Both the position numbers and the translations under genes were made by a program. The notes beneath the pieces are model-generated. The model saw nothing but the letters and a program-made list of their open reading frames with translations, ran no database searches and was not told the origin of the DNA. Below, piece after piece: positions 43,846 to 59,229 of a stretch of DNA of 64,000 nucleotides (its first letter is position 1; each line of letters begins with the position of its first letter). The DNA lies in the NCBI RefSeq assembly GCF_039537965.1, contig NZ_BAABBM010000001.1, forward strand, positions 868,001 to 932,000, read 5' to 3'. The stretch comes from Sphingomonas limnosediminicola (lineage in GTDB: Bacteria > Pseudomonadota > Alphaproteobacteria > Sphingomonadales > Sphingomonadaceae).

Positions 43846-43882
43846 GAAGTGGCAGCTTTCGACCCATTCCCGCCATTGGCCA
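43846..43882. repeat. Dispersed hairpin repeat
   Basis: GTGGCAGCTTTCGACCCATTCCCGCCATTG, one unit. A weak hairpin (CCCGGCGA / TCGCCGGG, 43794-43821) lies just before it after the previous gene. Confidence 0.7.
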
Positions 43883-43998
43883 TCGTCTCATCCTGCCTCA
43901 TTGACCGTAAAAACAACCATGTGCGGGATTTAACTTGCTTAATTTTCGTTAACCACGATGGTTGCGATTGGACTCTGGGGCGAGTTGAGGGGGCATGC

Positions 43999-44901
43999 AT
44001 GACGAAAGCTACGCTACCTCACTATTGGGGGGCTCACATGCGCCGAGTTTCTTGGCAGCAGCGTTTAGCTGCGCGAGCGGAACTTTTCTGTACCGTACTT
44101 TTGATTCTGATTGGGCTCGGAGTTGCTGCAGGGCCAGCTGAAGCTGGCCGCGGTATCGTTATCGACAACTTCACGAGCGAAATCTGGGCGGATGCTGGCC
44201 AAGGGGATACAGTTCCGCTCCCCTTTTCAGTCAATTACGGCAGCGGACCCCGTTCAAACGTGACAGTCCAGCTGCCAACCAGCTTCGGCACGCAAATTAA
44301 CGGACTGAACTTTGCCGTCGTCGGACTAAACTTTAGCGCGACCGATAACCTCTTCGCGACGGTCAATGGGGGCACTTTGGGACAAGATGTGCCTGGGCTT
44401 AGGCTCAGTAACGAAACTCAAACATCAACGCCAATGCACCCGGTCAGCCAAGCCTCCTATTTTCAATTCGGGAACGTCTCACCGGCAAGCATGGCACCGC
44501 CGCCTTTTGGTGCTCCAGGTTGCGACACTAGCGGCATTGCCATGGCTTGCTACGGACCAATGACAGATTCGTCCCTGTTTCATTTTGTCGACCTATCGTC
44601 GACAGGTAGTGCGGGTGACTTCGAACTGATCCTGGAGTGCGGCGCACTGTGCGGTAACATCGGCTTCAATCTCGCCGGGCTCAGCTTCTCCGCCGACACA
44701 TTCAATCCGGCAAACGCACCCTCCCAGCTTGTTGGCTATTCGTTAGGCCAACAAGTGCCTGGTTTTCACCAAGGGACTTGGGATTTCGTTTTTCGGAACT
44801 CAGCCGCTGTCCCAGAGCCAAGCACGTGGTCGTCCATGCTTCTCGGCTTCGGGCTTATAGGGTTCGCATTCCGCCGAGGACGCAGGCTTTTGGTAAACTG
44901 A
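43999..44901 (+). CDS. PEPxxW-CTERM secreted protein
   Basis: About 300 residues from ATG 43999, which follows GAGGGGG. ATG 44038 behind GGGGGG is an equally good start. The signal peptide ends near AEA-GR. The body is Ser/Thr/Asn-rich with four cysteines (GCDTSGIAMAC, ECGALCG). The C-terminus is PEPSTWSSMLLGFGLIGFAF plus RRGRR, a PEP-CTERM tail with Ser after Trp where Ala is usual. It is followed at 20 bp by the TIR-TPR gene. Confidence 0.83.
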   Translation: MTKATLPHYWGAHMRRVSWQQRLAARAELFCTVLLILIGLGVAAGPAEAGRGIVIDNFTSEIWADAGQGDTVPLPFSVNYGSGPRSNVTVQLPTSFGTQINGLNFAVVGLNFSATDNLFATVNGGTLGQDVPGLRLSNETQTSTPMHPVSQASYFQFGNVSPASMAPPPFGAPGCDTSGIAMACYGPMTDSSLFHFVDLSSTGSAGDFELILECGALCGNIGFNLAGLSFSADTFNPANAPSQLVGYSLGQQVPGFHQGTWDFVFRNSAAVPEPSTWSSMLLGFGLIGFAFRRGRRLLVN

Positions 44902-44920: not shown

Positions 44921-46885
44921 GTGCGCTATTCGACCTTCATCAGTTACAATCATAAAGACCGGCGATGGGCACAGTGGATTCATCGAGAGCTGGAGCGGTA
45001 CCGCCTGCCAAAGGCATTGATTGGCCGCTCTAGCCCCGTCGGAGTACTAGACCGACGCCTGCCGCCAGTGTTCCAGGATCGAGAGGAACTCGCCGCTTCA
45101 ACCAATCTTGCAAGTTCCGTCCAGGAGGCGCTCAGACAATCACATACCCTGATCGTCATCTGTTCCAGCAACGGGGCCAAATCCAAGTGGGTCAATGAAG
45201 AGGTCCGCCAGTTTGCGGCATTAGGTCGTCGAGACCGGATCCAGTGTTTGATCGTCCCCGAAGCCGATCCCAGGGGCGAACCACCACCCGAAGTCGACAT
45301 CCTACCGCCCGCATTGCTGGAGTTGGGCGATGAACCCTTAGCCGCTGATGCTCGGAAGACGGGGGACGGCAAGCGCGCTGCTTTCCTGAAGCTCGTGGCT
45401 GGAATCATCGACGTTCGTTACGACGATCTTCGCCAACGCGAACATGCGCGGCGACAGCGGCAATTGTTGATGCTTGCCACGGCAGCAAGCGCTGGCTTCA
45501 TCGTGATGGCGGGCCTCACAATATTTGCCTTCGTTTCGCGCGCTGATGCTGTTCGGCAGCGAGACGTCGCCCGGCAACAGACGTTAGCCGCGCAGCGCAC
45601 GACAGACTTTGTGAAAGGTCTGTTCCAGGTGTCCGATCCATCGGAAGCAAAGGGCCGATCGATTACCGCTCTGGAGGTGTTGGATCGAGGCGCCCGGGAA
45701 ATTCAAGGTCAGCTCGCTAATGAGCCTGATGTCAAAGCCGAGCTCATCAGTACATTGAGCGAGGTCTACACAGGGCTTGGCTCCTATCGACGCGCGGACT
45801 CGCTCATCCGAGCTGCGCTCTCGCTCCCCGTAACGAGAGACGAAACGCGAGCGAGGCAAATTGGCGTGTTCGCAGCTTCGCAAGCTTTGCAGGCCAACTA
45901 CGATGCAGCTGTCAGCAACTTTAACATTGCCCTGAGGAAGATCGAAAAGCCGGCAGAGTTACAGGACCCGTCGCTCTACTCCCGACTGCTGATCGGTAAG
46001 GCGGAGGCGCTGGCAGCGCTCGACCGATATGATGAGGCACTGGCGGCCAGCAAGACCGCGCTCAAGTGGGACGGGGAGCGAGAGGGATTTAACTCTGAAA
46101 ACGTCGCCCGCGACTTCGAGGCGATCGGACTGACATCACAATATGCACGTGATTTGGCGGCGAGCCGCACAAGCTATGAGAAAGCACTGGCCATTCGGTT
46201 GGCGGTTAACGGACGACTTCATCCGATTGTCTCTCAAGATCTGAATGACGTAGGAACTGCTGCCTATCTTCAGCGGGATACTGCTGCGGCTGAGCGTTTC
46301 TGGCGATCCGCGCTAGCGATCGATGAACAAATCCTAGGGCCCAACCATCCGGACCTTGGGAACTTGTTGAACAACCTTGGTCGGGTTTCGCTCGAGCAAC
46401 GCAAGTATGCCCAGGCTGCTGCACTCCTTACTCGCAGCGAGCAGTTGTATCTCAGTCAGCGTAACGACACGCATGACGACCTTGCGTTCGTTTTTTCGAA
46501 CTTAGCGCTAGCAAAGGATGGTCTTGGCGCGACGAGAGAAGCTGAAGACCTCTTCGGGCGAGCTCTTCGCGCTGCAGAGGTCCATAACAATCGCCTGATA
46601 GCGCCGATTATGGTTGACCTCGCGGATCTCCGATGTCGACGGCATGATTTCAAGACAGCTTTGTCGGATCTCGCCAAGGCTGCTCCTCTCATGAAAAAGC
46701 AATACCCGACCGATCCCTGGCGAATGGCTTGGGTCGGAAATACTCGGGGAGCATGCCTGCTTGCGCAAGGCAACCCGGCCGGCCGCGCTCTTATTCGAGC
46801 AAGTTCGCCGCTCGTTCTAGATCGATGGAAGAAAGATACTGACTACGGTGCTAAGGCGGAAGCCCGTCTTCAGAATGCGATCTAG
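44921..46885 (+). CDS. TIR domain - transmembrane - TPR protein
   Basis: A 654-residue protein. Residues 1-160 form a TIR domain: FISYNHKDRRWA at 6-17 and SKWVNEEV at 88-95. The glutamate at 94 aligns with the catalytic Glu of TIR NADases (WxxxE arrangement, as in SARM1). A single helix (about 181-205) crosses the membrane, and residues about 225-640 are tetratricopeptide repeats of Sel1-free type (for example HPDLGNLLNNLGRVSLEQRKYAQA). TIR would be cytosolic and the TPR array periplasmic if the N-terminus is inside. GTG 44921 is the start. NADase activity and a defence role are inference; no partner effector is adjacent. Confidence 0.85.
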   Translation: MRYSTFISYNHKDRRWAQWIHRELERYRLPKALIGRSSPVGVLDRRLPPVFQDREELAASTNLASSVQEALRQSHTLIVICSSNGAKSKWVNEEVRQFAALGRRDRIQCLIVPEADPRGEPPPEVDILPPALLELGDEPLAADARKTGDGKRAAFLKLVAGIIDVRYDDLRQREHARRQRQLLMLATAASAGFIVMAGLTIFAFVSRADAVRQRDVARQQTLAAQRTTDFVKGLFQVSDPSEAKGRSITALEVLDRGAREIQGQLANEPDVKAELISTLSEVYTGLGSYRRADSLIRAALSLPVTRDETRARQIGVFAASQALQANYDAAVSNFNIALRKIEKPAELQDPSLYSRLLIGKAEALAALDRYDEALAASKTALKWDGEREGFNSENVARDFEAIGLTSQYARDLAASRTSYEKALAIRLAVNGRLHPIVSQDLNDVGTAAYLQRDTAAAERFWRSALAIDEQILGPNHPDLGNLLNNLGRVSLEQRKYAQAAALLTRSEQLYLSQRNDTHDDLAFVFSNLALAKDGLGATREAEDLFGRALRAAEVHNNRLIAPIMVDLADLRCRRHDFKTALSDLAKAAPLMKKQYPTDPWRMAWVGNTRGACLLAQGNPAGRALIRASSPLVLDRWKKDTDYGAKAEARLQNAI

Positions 46886-52354: not shown

Positions 52355-52390
52355 TTAATGGCAGAAATGGGTGGAAAACGGACATTAGCC
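52355..52390. repeat. Dispersed hairpin repeat
   Basis: TTAATGGCAGAAATGGGTGGAAAACGGACATTAGCC; the ends TTAATGGCAG and ACATTAGCC are the flanks of the full element. Confidence 0.7.
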
Positions 52391-52398
52391 AAATAGCG

Positions 52399-53406
52399 CT
52401 AAGTTGTGACCCGTTCCGCTGACGGGGTTCCAGGTCTTGCTCGGAATACTCGTGTCAGCACTCGACTTGCGCGTCCGGGGAACAGTTCGGCTCTACGTGC
52501 TGCCACCGAAGACTTCACGCGCCAACTCCCTCTTGGAGCGAAGTCGATCCCCTTAACGGCTTCGATGTAGTTTGTGCGAAAGAGCTTGAGGCTCGCGCTA
52601 CGCCGTTCATTGTTCGGCGCCTTTGGTTCGAGACTAACGTACGGGTTGCTATTGATCTCGTAGAACTGTGGCTTGCCCCCAACCAGACCGAAGTCGACCC
52701 GACCGTACTCGATCCCGGCCAGATCAAACGCTTTCTTCGCAGCCGCTCCGAAAGGGTTCTCCGCAATTAAGCGGTATTCTTCGTCGTAGAGGTCCGCGGT
52801 CGCAATACCCGAAGTGCCGTATTTCACGAGCCAGTTGTCGTCATGAACACACGTGTATCCAAGCATCCTGTCCCCAACGCGGAATACGGACAGTTTACGG
52901 TACAAGCCGGACCGTACAGGCTCAGCGGCATACTCAATGATTAGCAACGCAGATCGGGGAGCGCCACGTTCGATCGCTTTTTGCAAAGCGCGGTTCAGCG
53001 AAGCTTGGTCTTCAAGCAGTCCCGAGACAGGAGCGTGATGGTCCCCTTCCAACCGAAGGAACACTGGCCATATACGAGGAGCTTCAATCCCATCAACGCG
53101 GTACGCGTCAAAGTCGTTGATACCCGCCCGATTAAGGCCCCGAAGCAGCCCAAAACGGCCGAGGAAGCAGGCGGGATCGTTGAGTGCTCGAAACCCTGCG
53201 TCCCTCACCTTCCTGTACATCAGGGCGGCTTCGTGCACCCGCCAACTGGGTAGGCGATCTAAGTCTGTGAAGACGTGCGTGGCGCGACGCGGAGTCCTGC
53301 GCTTGAGGACATCGTCATAGCTAGCGACCTCGATGTCCAGGGCCGTGTCCCTGTAAAGGTTCAGGTGTGTGTAACGATGCTCCGGTGTTGTGATGATCAG
53401 GATCAA
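52399..53406 (-). CDS. ATP-grasp ligase of the putative peptide-modification locus
   Basis: A 335-residue ATP-grasp enzyme, a fold that activates a carboxylate as acyl-phosphate for ligation to an amine or alcohol. The start is TTG 53406, 5 nt after GGGGG, giving MILIITTPEHRYTH; an upstream TTG (53418) is less likely. The C-terminal grasp core carries YGRVDFGLVGGKPQFYEINSNPYV near 250-273 with the metal-binding Asp and Glu-x-Asn. The N-terminal part resembles RimK-type and graspetide ligases in outline. It faces the precursor gene across 79 bp. The partner, not the sequence, suggests a RiPP substrate. Confidence 0.82.
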   Translation of the reverse strand: MILIITTPEHRYTHLNLYRDTALDIEVASYDDVLKRRTPRRATHVFTDLDRLPSWRVHEAALMYRKVRDAGFRALNDPACFLGRFGLLRGLNRAGINDFDAYRVDGIEAPRIWPVFLRLEGDHHAPVSGLLEDQASLNRALQKAIERGAPRSALLIIEYAAEPVRSGLYRKLSVFRVGDRMLGYTCVHDDNWLVKYGTSGIATADLYDEEYRLIAENPFGAAAKKAFDLAGIEYGRVDFGLVGGKPQFYEINSNPYVSLEPKAPNNERRSASLKLFRTNYIEAVKGIDFAPRGSWRVKSSVAARRAELFPGRASRVLTRVFRARPGTPSAERVTT

Positions 53407-53485
53407 GACAGCCCCCAACGATATCTTGCCCGGTAAACGCTAATATAATAGCAACCGCCTTCCAACCTATCTTTGGAGTAGCCTG
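53407..53485. promoter_or_regulatory. Divergent promoter region of the peptide locus
   Basis: A 79-bp gap holds the promoters for both directions. It has a local AT-rich core with TAATATAAT (TATAAT at 53444-53449). No good -35 match could be paired with it. Confidence 0.5.
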
Positions 53486-53677
53486 ATGAGCGAAGTGGCA
53501 CGGAAGCTGGACTGGAATCGGATGCTTGGCTTCGAGCAGATCACCGAGACGCGCGACGCTGTGCGCGACGGGGTCGCGGCCCCCAAGGTTGGCGTGAAGA
53601 CCGGCACGAAGGTTGGGTCAAAGGTTGGTACCAAGATCGGCACCAAGATTGGCGCCAAGGTTGGCCTCAAAGCGTAA
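53486..53677 (+). CDS. Putative RiPP precursor with seven K-x-G-x repeats
   Basis: A 63-residue peptide. Residues 1-33 look like a leader (MSEVARKLDWNRMLGFEQ at the start, four acidic residues in 17-28). Residues 34-61 are seven exact tetrapeptides K-[VTI]-G-[VTSAL], then Lys-Ala. TTTGGAG precedes ATG 53486 with good spacing. The core has no Asp, Glu, Cys, Ser-rich block or aromatic residue, and eight lysines, so it is strongly cationic. The next gene begins 7 nt after its stop and encodes a predicted peptide hydroxylase. That this is a substrate is inferred from context and repeats; no homologue is known to me. Confidence 0.75.
   Translation: MSEVARKLDWNRMLGFEQITETRDAVRDGVAAPKVGVKTGTKVGSKVGTKIGTKIGAKVGLKA
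53585..53668 (+). repeat. Seven 12-bp tandem repeats encoding K-x-G-x
   Basis: Units such as AAGGTTGGCACC-like 12-mers (AAGGTTGGCGTG, AAGACCGGCACG, AAGATTGGCGCC). The codons vary at synonymous positions (GGC, GGG, GGT), so the array is diverged, not a recent slippage product. Confidence 0.85.
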
Positions 53678-53684
53678 CCAACAG

Positions 53685-54671
53685 GTGGCTGCGGAAGTCC
53701 GCAGCCTAGCTGCGACCTTCGAACCGGCTGCGGAGCGCGGCTGCGCCCTTGATCGAGGGATGCGCGAGCGACTAGGCGAGACCCTGGAGTACGTATTCCA
53801 GGAAGTGGGCGTCGACTTAAAGATGACGGCACCTGCGGCGCGCGCAGTGGTCGAGCATATTCTGTCCACGCCCCAGTCGCCCCACGTTTTTGGCGCCTAT
53901 TACGACCTAGTCTTCGCTCTTGAACGCAATGACCTTGAACTAGCGCACACTCTTGCCAAAGAGCTGTCGCAGCGAGCCCCAGCAGACAGCGTCGCCATTA
54001 TCTCGATTGATGAATTGTCTGCTCTTCAGCAGGATCGATACCGACGCCTGCTTATGTCCGGCATGGATTATGCCGTGGCGCCCGGTGCGGAGCTGATGCA
54101 AGCCTATCGCGAGCAGTTAAGCGAGGCGATGAGCCTGCTCGAAGTTGGGTTCCCGGAGATGGCTGCAGAAGTCCGCGCATTGCTCCGCGAAATTGTAGTC
54201 GCGGCTGGCCCAGAAGATCCAAAGGCACTCACGTTCGACGGGGCCTCTTCCTACATGATGTGGGGCGCGATCCTGTTGAACGCACGCGGGCAGAAGAGTG
54301 TTCTCGACTCAGCGCAGGCGCTTGCTCACGAGAGCGGACACAATTTGCTATTCGGCTTCTCGGCTTCCGGCCCCCTAGTCGAAAATGCCGATGACGAGCT
54401 CTTTAGTTCGCCTTTGCGGGCAGATTCCCGACCTATGGATGGAGTTTTTCACGCGACCTACGTCGTCGCCAGAATGCATCAAACGCTTAGCCGTCTGCTT
54501 GGTTCTGGGGTGCTAGATGAGGAGCAGACATCTAGCGCGCGAGCCGATTTAGCCACGCACCGTAGGAACTTTGAACTCGGAGACCGAGTCGTGCGGGACG
54601 GCGCGAAACTCACCGAGGTAGGCGTATCCGCGATCGAAGCGGCTCGGGAATATATGCTATCCGTCGCGTGA
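53685..54671 (+). CDS. HExxH-type peptide modification protein (alpha-ketoglutarate hydroxylase-like)
   Basis: A 328-residue protein, start GTG 53685 just after the precursor; the frame is open upstream but only because of the repeats. HESGH at 215-219 (LAHESGHNLLF) and SPLRADSRPMDGVFHATYV at 242-260 match the HEXXH-motif protein family (TIGR04267), whose members include alpha-ketoglutarate-HExxH peptide beta-hydroxylases that modify RiPPs. The Arg-Pro-x-Asp-Gly-x-x-His string after the HExxH is the diagnostic part. The N-terminal helical domain (about 1-190) may bind the leader. It should hydroxylate the precursor; the residue is unknown. Confidence 0.82.
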   Translation: MAAEVRSLAATFEPAAERGCALDRGMRERLGETLEYVFQEVGVDLKMTAPAARAVVEHILSTPQSPHVFGAYYDLVFALERNDLELAHTLAKELSQRAPADSVAIISIDELSALQQDRYRRLLMSGMDYAVAPGAELMQAYREQLSEAMSLLEVGFPEMAAEVRALLREIVVAAGPEDPKALTFDGASSYMMWGAILLNARGQKSVLDSAQALAHESGHNLLFGFSASGPLVENADDELFSSPLRADSRPMDGVFHATYVVARMHQTLSRLLGSGVLDEEQTSSARADLATHRRNFELGDRVVRDGAKLTEVGVSAIEAAREYMLSVA

Positions 54672-56754: not shown

Positions 56755-57780
56755 TCAGAGACGTTCCATCAGGTAACAAAGGCAATCCTGCCTGACGATG
56801 CGCGGGTCTGTGGTGAGCATCGCCGGCACGACTTTCTTGCGCAGCCTCAGTCTACCTCCGCTGACTTCGAAATATTCCTCCGCGACGTCGCGCCCGGCTT
56901 CGTCGATCATTCTGAGCGGCATGGGATGAACCGTCGCGCCCAAGATGGTTCCTGGCAGCAAGTCTTCGAAATTATGCGCGTCGATCCCGGGATCGAAGCA
57001 AATGTCGGCTTTGTCTGCGCCGAATAGGAAGCTCACTTCCTTTCTCAAACGCACAACGCCAAGTGAGTGGTACAGGTCGAACGCCGAGCGGTCGCCCGGA
57101 CCTTCCGGCAATTCATCAAGATTGAGCACGGCATCTAGGAATTTCGCTGCAGCTTTTTCGTTGGCCTCTTGGTGCGGGAGCCCGCACTCGGCGGTGGCGG
57201 CGGGAATGACGCCGGCGAATGAGGCCGTGGAGGTTCCCGGGATGCCGCGGAAGCGGACGGCACGGCGCGCGAACAAGACGGCAAGTCCGAGAGTGTGTGG
57301 ATCGAGGTCGCAGACGACTGCATAATGCGGATTGCGACCGGTATTGTTGTGCAGGTCAATGGCCGCGAAGGCGCGCCGGTTCACTGCCCGCGCATGCACT
57401 TCCGCCATGATCTGCCGCTCGAAAGTTTGACCATCGCTCGGTGCACCGGGCCAGATGCGGTTATAGTCGGGTTGCCCGTCCAAACGTCGCATTCCCTGGC
57501 GCGCCGCCTGAACATTGCCGATCAGCAACATCAACGACCGCGGCAACAGCGCATCCGAATAGCTGCGCAGCACGCGCTGCACTCCGCCTAAGCCAGAATC
57601 CTCATTGCCATGAAGAAGGGTGGAAACGAACAGGGGCGGCTCGGTCTTCCCCGGCAGCTCGATAAGCGTTGGGCCGTCCAATATCAGATGAAGATCACGC
57701 GCTCTGCAGCTGAGAAGGCCATCCGGTAGCGAATCGCGGATGGTAAGACGCGTCGTTGGCACGTTCGTCAGAGTGGCCAT
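56755..57780 (-). CDS. M14-family succinylglutamate desuccinylase/aspartoacylase-like protein
   Basis: A 341-residue zinc carboxypeptidase-fold protein. LHGNEDSG near 57-64 supplies the first His and Glu, and IDLHNNTG near 140 the second His, as in AstE and aspartoacylase. DYNRIWPG is the usual Arg-containing segment. The ATG overlaps by 13 bp the end of the GCS2-like gene upstream, so the two are coupled. The natural amide substrate is not known; the pair may make and break a gamma-glutamyl-type compound. Confidence 0.85.
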   Translation of the reverse strand: MATLTNVPTTRLTIRDSLPDGLLSCRARDLHLILDGPTLIELPGKTEPPLFVSTLLHGNEDSGLGGVQRVLRSYSDALLPRSLMLLIGNVQAARQGMRRLDGQPDYNRIWPGAPSDGQTFERQIMAEVHARAVNRRAFAAIDLHNNTGRNPHYAVVCDLDPHTLGLAVLFARRAVRFRGIPGTSTASFAGVIPAATAECGLPHQEANEKAAAKFLDAVLNLDELPEGPGDRSAFDLYHSLGVVRLRKEVSFLFGADKADICFDPGIDAHNFEDLLPGTILGATVHPMPLRMIDEAGRDVAEEYFEVSGGRLRLRKKVVPAMLTTDPRIVRQDCLCYLMERL

Positions 57781-59189
57781 TCGTGGACAGGTCGGCCCGT
57801 TCTCTGGTTCTCCAGATAGGCGGCCGTTAGCTTGTGCAGGTCGCCATGCCGATTGAAATGCGCAAGCTGCCATTCGGCGCCGTTTCGACCGGCGGCCAGC
57901 CGAAGCGAGATGATACTCAGATAATGATCGATAAGGTCGTCATCCATTCCCTGCGCTGCAAGTCCTTCCGCCGCGAGTGAAACAAGGTCGCTCAGGACAT
58001 CGCGAATGGCGCGCTTGCGCTGTCCGCTCAGCCAATGGATTTCTGCATCAAGACCGAGGCGAGCCGCCTCGTAGAAATTCTCCCGCACTAGAGCAAAAGG
58101 CAGGATCATTTCCGGATTATCGAGATCGCGCGCGAGCATGCGGACAGCGCCGAAGTATAGCGCGGCATTGGCCATCATGTCGCGCACGGTCGGCCCGGCA
58201 GGCAGAACACGCTGTTCGATCCTGATGTGCGGTTTACCATCTGGATCGAAACCGACGATCGGTCGTACCCAGCGCCAGATGGTGCCGTTCTGGAGGCGCA
58301 GGCAGGAGTAGCACCGCACCGGGTCGCGCGGCTCGACCGGCAGCAGGATTGGATACTCCCTCAGATTCTCCTCAAACAGTTCAGTGATATCTTCTCCGGC
58401 GTAATCGGTTCCCAAAGTCACGCGGTCCGGGCCATGAGACTGCTGGAGCGACTGTTCGAAGATCGCAATCCGCGTTTCTTTCCAAAGCGGCTGGCCGAAC
58501 AGGAAGGGCGAATTCGCCGCGATCGCCACGAGCGGGGCCGTCAACACCAGCGACGCATTGTACGTGCGCGATAGAACGTCCGGTGGCACCTGCAGATGCA
58601 GCTGGAAGGATGTAGCGGCCGCCTCGAGCATCACATGCTTGAAACAGGCGAGAAAGGGGTGGCCGCCAGGCAGCGCGCAATCGATATCGATGTTAAGCGG
58701 TATGCCTCCTCTAAGCCGCATCGCTTCATGATTGAGCGCTTGGTAACGGTGAGACGGGGTCATCGCCTCGAGGGAAAGGTCTTGCTGCCGAAGGGTCGGC
58801 AAAGTCCCAATGGCGATGACGGTGTCGACGTCGTCGTGCGCGTTGGCAGCGCAGCGCCGCATGGTCTCTGACAGGTGCTCATGCATGCGATGGAAGCAAC
58901 GGCCTTCGATCCGTTCAACGGGTGCATTGATCTCGATATTGAACTGCGACAGCTCGGCAACCACGCATGGGTCAGCAAGGCGTTCGAGAAATGACTGGTT
59001 GTGCGGGGCTGGGAAGAAGTTGTGGTCGATCAACCAAAGTTCGAGCTCGAGGCCGATGAAGGGACCGGCGTCCGAGCATTGCCCGGCGGCGAAGGCATTG
59101 CGCAGCGATTGCGTCTCTAGCGCCAGCCGACTTCGAAACCGTGCGAAATCCTGTCCGGAAAACTCGCGACCTCGGATTTCCTGGCCCAT
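57768..59189 (-). CDS. Glutamate-cysteine ligase family 2 (GCS2)-like protein
   Basis: A 473-residue ATP-dependent ligase. GLELELWLID near 45 and LSQFNIEINAPVE near 82 are the signatures of the GCS2 family (YbdK-like), which carries out gamma-glutamyl or related carboxylate-amine ligation. IRIEQRVLPAGPT near 320 is also typical. ATG 59189 has GAGGG just upstream; the frame is open to 59219. Coupled to the M14 hydrolase. It is not the main gshA-type enzyme by sequence pattern; true substrates are unknown. Confidence 0.83.
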   Translation of the reverse strand: MGQEIRGREFSGQDFARFRSRLALETQSLRNAFAAGQCSDAGPFIGLELELWLIDHNFFPAPHNQSFLERLADPCVVAELSQFNIEINAPVERIEGRCFHRMHEHLSETMRRCAANAHDDVDTVIAIGTLPTLRQQDLSLEAMTPSHRYQALNHEAMRLRGGIPLNIDIDCALPGGHPFLACFKHVMLEAAATSFQLHLQVPPDVLSRTYNASLVLTAPLVAIAANSPFLFGQPLWKETRIAIFEQSLQQSHGPDRVTLGTDYAGEDITELFEENLREYPILLPVEPRDPVRCYSCLRLQNGTIWRWVRPIVGFDPDGKPHIRIEQRVLPAGPTVRDMMANAALYFGAVRMLARDLDNPEMILPFALVRENFYEAARLGLDAEIHWLSGQRKRAIRDVLSDLVSLAAEGLAAQGMDDDLIDHYLSIISLRLAAGRNGAEWQLAHFNRHGDLHKLTAAYLENQRTGRPVHEWPL

Positions 59190-59229
59190 GCCCTCACTCT
59201 CTGATCGAGGTATAGACAATCATGCCGCT

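Follow-up and report, generated by a model that had tools for sequence, protein, structure and literature searches.

The window analysed here is a 64,000-nucleotide stretch of the Sphingomonas limnosediminicola genome, a single 2.85-Mb contig in which the HExxH gene considered below finds one match. Three adjacent genes in the window, together with their features, are the subject of this analysis.

52399-53406, minus strand: ATP-grasp ORF, 335 residues from ATG, predicted RimK/LysX/PsnB fold
52642-52701, minus strand: ATP-grasp catalytic motif R236-x-D238 ... E250-x-N252-x-N254-P255, from alignment
53407-53485, no strand: 79-bp intergenic region between the divergent genes
53486-53677, plus strand: precursor peptide, 63 residues, GGAG upstream of its ATG; 14 homologues; family members adjoin HExxH/ATP-grasp pairs elsewhere
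53507-53533, plus strand: presumed leader recognition motif LDWNRMLGF
53585-53671, plus strand: K-x-G-x core repeat, eight Lys four residues apart, seven xGxK units, no Asp/Glu
53685-54671, plus strand: HExxH-type alpha-ketoglutarate/Fe(II) peptide hydroxylase, 328 residues from GTG
54327-54341, plus strand: HESGH motif, hydroxylase residues 215-219
54408-54443, plus strand: SPLRADSRPMDG motif, hydroxylase residues 242-253, aligning with SPWREDLRPPSG of ChlH

The three-ORF arrangement of the original prediction, with its coordinates, its divergence across 79 bp and its 7-nt gap between the peptide stop and the GTG of the HExxH gene, was confirmed on the sequence. An alternative TTG start 12 nt upstream would extend the ATP-grasp protein to 339 residues. 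Inspection of the intergenic region located a TATAAT-like AATATAATAG and the GGAG ahead of the peptide, while a sigma-70 promoter scan of the same 79 bp gave no match. Third-position GC is 0.62-0.63 in the two enzyme genes versus 0.66-0.85 in six neighbours, which would fit horizontal gain of the enzyme genes; the short peptide gene (0.79) is without such a signal. An interspersed short repeat around AATGGGTSGAAA is present at window positions 52366, 54745, 55284 and 55320 and at nine further sites (13 window matches with at most one mismatch versus 0.31 expected), and two of its copies flank the cassette on either side.

Identity of the two enzymes

The HESGH-containing protein had been proposed to be a TIGR04267 HEXXH-type hydroxylase. 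Family profile and fold agree with this assignment: the protein scores 98.9 bits against TIGR04267 (curated cut-off 40), and its predicted structure matches the fold of the ChlH HExxH domain. H215, E216 and H219 are invariant in all 48 aligned HExxH proteins, and the HExxH and S/A-P-x-R-x-D-x-R-P blocks of ChlH and SjiH align with the window protein. Given the profile and the fold, a role as a plain protease is less likely. Within the order, TIGR04267 matches occur in 17 of 396 genomes at E 0.001, 12 of them above the cut-off. The founding paper on HExxH enzymes is reportedly that of Morishita (2024). The described TIGR04267 enzymes (ChlH, SjiH, PflC/PosC, PesO and BpmH) share the family model and fold with the window protein and, in the excerpted accounts of them, accompany radical SAM, MNIO, nitroreductase or asparagine-synthetase-like enzymes, whereas the window protein stands alone and is partnered by an ATP-grasp and a Lys/Gly repeat precursor. 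According to excerpts of PMC12636437 and PMC13060819, HExxH relatives hydroxylate Asp, His, Gln, Pro and Phe residues of RiPP precursors, and PflC modifies consecutive Gln residues (PMC12636437). The window enzyme likely acts on the neighbouring peptide as an oxygenase.

Recognition of the ligase depended on structure. No Pfam or NCBIfam model matches the window protein, the curated RimK/LysX sequence model does not recognise it, and ATP-grasp family models recognised none of 21 aligned members. When seven distant precursors and three ATP-grasp relatives were searched against NCBIfam (June 2026), nothing exceeded a cut-off, and the three ATP-grasps gave only sub-cut-off matches to D-Ala-D-Ala ligase. 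The assignment as a divergent ATP-grasp, made in the original prediction, is therefore carried by the AlphaFold model, which has a RimK-like ATP-grasp fold, and by the catalytic motif, whose residues R236, D238, E250, N252, N254 and P255 are invariant in 51 of 51 aligned proteins. RimK, LysX and ArgX are the closest solved folds among the matches listed (12-16% identity in structural alignments); PsnB is among the best 50 fold matches listed and MdnB/MdnC are absent from these. One reading modelled on RimK or LysX is that the ligase adds one or more amino acids to the C-terminus of the peptide while the HExxH enzyme hydroxylates the repeats independently. The protein substrates of RimK, LysX and ArgX terminate in an acidic residue, whereas the window precursor ends in Ala. 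Precursor C-termini are otherwise variable, and C-terminal ligation would leave the recurrence of Lys in the units unexplained, so that this reading appears unlikely. Action of the ATP-grasp on the window peptide in some form is probable.

The precursor peptide family

The window peptide consists of MSEVARKLDWNRMLGFEQITETRDAVRDGVAAP followed by KVGVKTGTKVGSKVGTKIGTKIGAKVGLKA, with eight Lys residues exactly four apart (34, 38, 42 ... 62). That this 63-residue repeat peptide is a true gene, as originally proposed, is borne out by 14 database relatives (E 7e-7 to 2e-17) with the same leader and repeat. The leader pattern occurs in 39 of 44 precursors, the exceptions being L023b, L033, L034, L035 and L040. 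Among these 39, the first position is L in 36, D is found in 36, the third position is W in 18 or P in 8, the fifth is K or R in 37, G is present in all 39 and F in 35. The number of xGxK units per precursor runs from zero (L023b) or one (two L023 precursors) up to 12; in a set enlarged to 48 members, 47 contain at least one unit. Of 214 units, 153 carry V, L or I directly ahead of Gly and 187 a K or R two residues ahead of it, which makes the hydrophobic residue, the Gly and the Lys the steady elements of the repeat. A RiPP-like architecture, with a conserved N-terminal region, a distinct C-terminal core and flanking enzymes, is seen in the 44 precursors and in four more from the independent draw described below.

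Co-occurrence and distribution of the cassette

Relatives found among 5.8 billion proteins numbered 14 for the peptide, 485 for the ATP-grasp and 355 for the HExxH protein, and included Sphingomicrobium and Sphingomonadaceae entries (P0028, P0119, P0243). At least 18 equal-sized longest contigs are common to the best 120 of the 485 ATP-grasp and the best 120 of the 355 HExxH relatives, and one longest contig of 404,764 was found for all three proteins; the equal sizes suggest that these are the same contigs.

The ATP-grasp alignment was then scanned over one genome per species (84,980 species), giving 29 loci. An HExxH gene lies near the ATP-grasp in 24 of them; 23 are whole and one (L039) aligns over about 60 residues before the contig ends. 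The paired enzymes are adjacent with precursors alone between them, except in L031, where they lie about 1.6 kb apart. Most pairs are divergent like that of the window, and co-directional pairs were found in L023 (first pair), L024 and L031. A first precursor profile, built from 15 sphingomonad-type sequences (the window peptide plus its 14 relatives) and run over 9,934 locus ORFs, detected 25 ORFs at E ≤0.5; they fall in 22 of the 24 loci, and each lies next to cassette genes. The window's own peptide, which occurs twice (L001 and L007), was counted apart. The L033 and L041 precursors were missed by this profile and recognised by eye, and their scores with a later profile are circular because both were included in it. 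The second HExxH/ATP-grasp pair of L023 has only a divergent candidate precursor lacking an xGxK unit. With the first profile, no precursor match at E ≤0.5 came from the five loci that lack HExxH. A variant organization was observed in L069, where one HExxH gene and one precursor with LSLKEGKP repeats lie between two ATP-grasps.

For an independent draw, the ATP-grasp profile was run against 385 genomes of the class and 398 of the phylum; five genomes matched in each set, the window's genome being in both. Ten stretches from eight other genomes were examined, leaving out the fourth and weakest match of G800 (the short locus L064 was checked separately). HExxH was found in four of the ten, and a wide precursor profile, built without these sequences, matched in the same four (E 8e-5 to 1e-10) and in none of the six HExxH-less stretches at E ≤1. 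A lack of co-occurrence in relatives, which the original prediction had named beforehand as refuting, was thus not what was seen: all three genes occur together in 24 of 29 public loci and four of ten drawn regions.

Among 397 genomes of the same family, a close ATP-grasp copy was present in the window's genome only; four weak matches (best 35% identity) had neither HExxH nor precursor in their short flanks. The scarcity of matches in the family and order searches indicates that the cassette is rare and patchy there. Only 2 of 72,556 plasmid records matched the ATP-grasp, and the two plasmid stretches, L051-L054 and L064 showed no HExxH at E 1 and no precursor below E 1.5 (flanks of 1.2-1.5 kb for L051-L054 and L064). 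The cassette is present in two phyla, Proteobacteria and Verrucomicrobiota.

ATP-grasp relatives without HExxH (five of 29 loci, six of ten drawn regions, the two plasmid records and L051) have no profile-detected precursor, and some sit in polysaccharide gene contexts; the ATP-grasp family is therefore not confined to RiPPs. HExxH-less relatives adjoin a GNAT gene (Acetyltransf_6) in L043, as scanned, and in L045-L047, by similarity; those of L043 and L046 lie near glycosyltransferases, and that of L080 lies beside O-antigen and export genes. These five loci (L043, L045, L046, L047 and L080) represent an uncharacterised ligase branch.

Co-variation of the enzyme pair

Pairwise distances of the HExxH and ATP-grasp proteins are correlated over 25 pairs (Mantel r 0.81, reached by none of 5000 permutations), a correlation that partly reflects shared organismal ancestry. 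L007, a duplicate of L001, was excluded from the distance test, the residue alignments and the tree, and L078, which scored under 150, from the ATP-grasp tree. On this tree of 42 ATP-grasps (31 HExxH-paired and 11 unpaired) the pairing label needs 4 changes versus 10 when shuffled, with none of 500 shuffles as low, indicating that HExxH pairing was lost or gained few times. The window ATP-grasp falls together with loci of Acetobacteraceae and Burkholderiaceae (L021, L022).

Co-occurrence and distance correlation together led us to reject a chance neighbourhood. We also considered that the peptide is a small cationic protein, binding for example nucleic acid, lipid or polysaccharide, which happens to lie between enzymes with other substrates. 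Lys/Gly-rich repeats evolve readily and related ATP-grasps do occur in polysaccharide clusters, but the leader and the enzyme-adjacent position are conserved over two phyla and precursor presence follows HExxH rather than the ATP-grasp alone, which makes such a protein very improbable. The RiPP-system interpretation of the original prediction is supported, and we consider the locus to be a RiPP cassette with a probability of about 0.9.

Comparison with known systems

Graspetide synthetases such as PsnB and CorB have an ATP-grasp fold and a dedicated precursor in common with the cassette, in which predicted fold and motif likewise place an ATP-grasp ligase. A divergent graspetide would accordingly join Lys, or a newly formed hydroxyl, to an acid elsewhere in that peptide, either an Asp/Glu of the leader or the carboxylate at its C-terminus, as lactam or lactone, with the HExxH enzyme tailoring the product like CorC in corallotide. 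A conserved core acceptor Asp/Glu like that of graspetides, however, is not seen across these precursors. The window peptide has no Asp/Glu after residue 28; the repeat region is free of both in 13 of 15 sphingomonad-type and 28 of 47 unit-bearing precursors (19 of 47 contain one or more), and Asp/Glu takes the variable position in only 13 of 214 units. In addition, Pfam and NCBIfam are blind to the window ligase, in contrast to graspetide synthetases. We consider a divergent graspetide unlikely.

Corallotide is the nearest functional parallel by analogy, sharing, in the portions of PMC13097080 available, a repeat precursor, a Lys per repeat, and a ligase with a 2OG/Fe(II) oxygenase. The same portions pair the Lys of the motif with Asp, whereas the window motif combines Lys with Gly, and describe CorC as a divergent 2OG-Fe(II) enzyme; HExxH is a term absent from that paper (PMC13097080).

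Among the open-access papers listed by literature searches, no title or displayed abstract presents a HExxH/ATP-grasp RiPP cassette or, in line with the original claim, a RiPP class with such a core. The three open-access papers containing both HEXXH and ATP-grasp deal, going by their listings, with microviridin proteolysis, with polyvalent phage proteins and with cyanophycin synthetase. The retrieved text of a graspetide survey (PMC8939145) lacks the words HExxH, hydroxylase and oxygenase; it reports that two zincin-superfamily peptidases accompany the ATP-grasps of its branch 2, together with SPASM radical enzymes and a cluster-23 protein, and that branches 7 and 8 have peptidases but no precursors. 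The supplements of this survey may hold an earlier partial notice of the HExxH/ATP-grasp pair. The cassette is real and probably unreported; its novelty lies in the combination and the precursor, the enzyme superfamilies being already known.

Proposed maturation of the peptide

The locus is quite likely a minimal RiPP maturation cassette of one precursor and two enzymes with leader-guided hydroxylation and acylation. We propose that both enzymes are recruited by the N-terminal region, LDWNRMLGFEQI, and have the C-terminal KVGVKTGTKVGSKVGTKIGTKIGAKVGLK as their substrate. In each repeat unit the HExxH oxygenase would hydroxylate a single residue, a beta-carbon of Lys or of the V/I/L preceding Gly being the most likely site. 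The ATP-grasp would activate a carboxylate and couple it to Lys side chains or to the new hydroxyls. The core is without a conserved acid, which speaks against the usual graspetide chemistry and points either to a carboxylate from outside the peptide or to the C-terminus; the most likely donor would therefore be the carboxylate of a small molecule or an amino acid. Joining of an exogenous carboxylate to Lys or hydroxyl is tentatively suggested, at rather less than even odds. More speculative still is a new RiPP class in which every K-x-G-x Lys is a branch point, the units are hydroxylated and an exogenous carboxylate is coupled per Lys or new hydroxyl, giving a ladder-like decorated peptide. 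To our knowledge, such a side-chain-decorated ladder has no precedent among graspetides or hydroxylated RiPPs.

The HExxH enzyme might instead break the peptide chain by oxidation inside the repeat, in the manner of PflC at its ARMD motif, releasing several short amidated peptides for conjugation by the ATP-grasp. Oxidative backbone cleavage by PflC and PosC is a precedent in the same superfamily (excerpts of PMC12636437), and Gly-containing tandem units would suit multiple release. Among the relatives described in the excerpts of PMC12636437 and PMC13060819, however, PflC and PosC alone have this activity, and some precursors have a single unit; excision is thus quite improbable compared with the leader-guided hydroxylation and acylation proposed above.

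The cassette is a compact, conserved two-enzyme system in which a member of a little-characterised oxygenase family is combined with an ATP-grasp, and its repeat substrate would allow modifications to be counted by mass. It also provides a test case for whether RiPP-pathway ATP-grasps can use carboxylates from outside the peptide. Mining that depends on Pfam or NCBIfam would miss it, since its ATP-grasp is undetected by both.

Neighbouring genes

Flanking genes were called crudely (ORFs of at least 90 residues, greedy), a procedure that may overlook partners which are small or overlap other genes; one or more members of eight similarity groups were scanned. Apart from the two enzymes, one group found in at least three loci consists of ORFs partly overlapping the ATP-grasp region on the opposite strand. 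The other recurrent groups comprise a generic ABC-transporter ATPase without fixed position (five loci: L026, L032, L038, L041, L047), GNAT (L043, L045, L046, L047), heparinase and purH (L025, L027, L049), glycosyltransferase (L033, L043, L046), acyl-CoA dehydrogenase, EamA and one unscanned group; none has a fixed place beside the HExxH pairs. These flanks contain no conserved protease or exporter beside the cassette genes by this gene calling, which leaves maturation incomplete on paper; genes located elsewhere may serve processing, which, like a biological role for the product, is presumed. The downstream GCS2, AstE/AspA and Mur-ligase genes of the window were rejected as suppliers because no matching group recurs across loci.

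In L025 and L027 a purH homologue lies less than 1 kb from the cassette, and in L049 the distance is about 7 kb; these loci belong to different families (only L025 was Pfam-scanned), hinting at an old chromosomal site. Elsewhere in the window, GCS2-type glutamate-cysteine ligase-like and AstE/AspA-like genes occupy overlapping ORFs at 56755-59219 (minus strand), and a TIR domain and tetratricopeptide repeat protein (44921-46885), possibly of defence or signalling, adjoins a PEP-CTERM protein (43849-44901).
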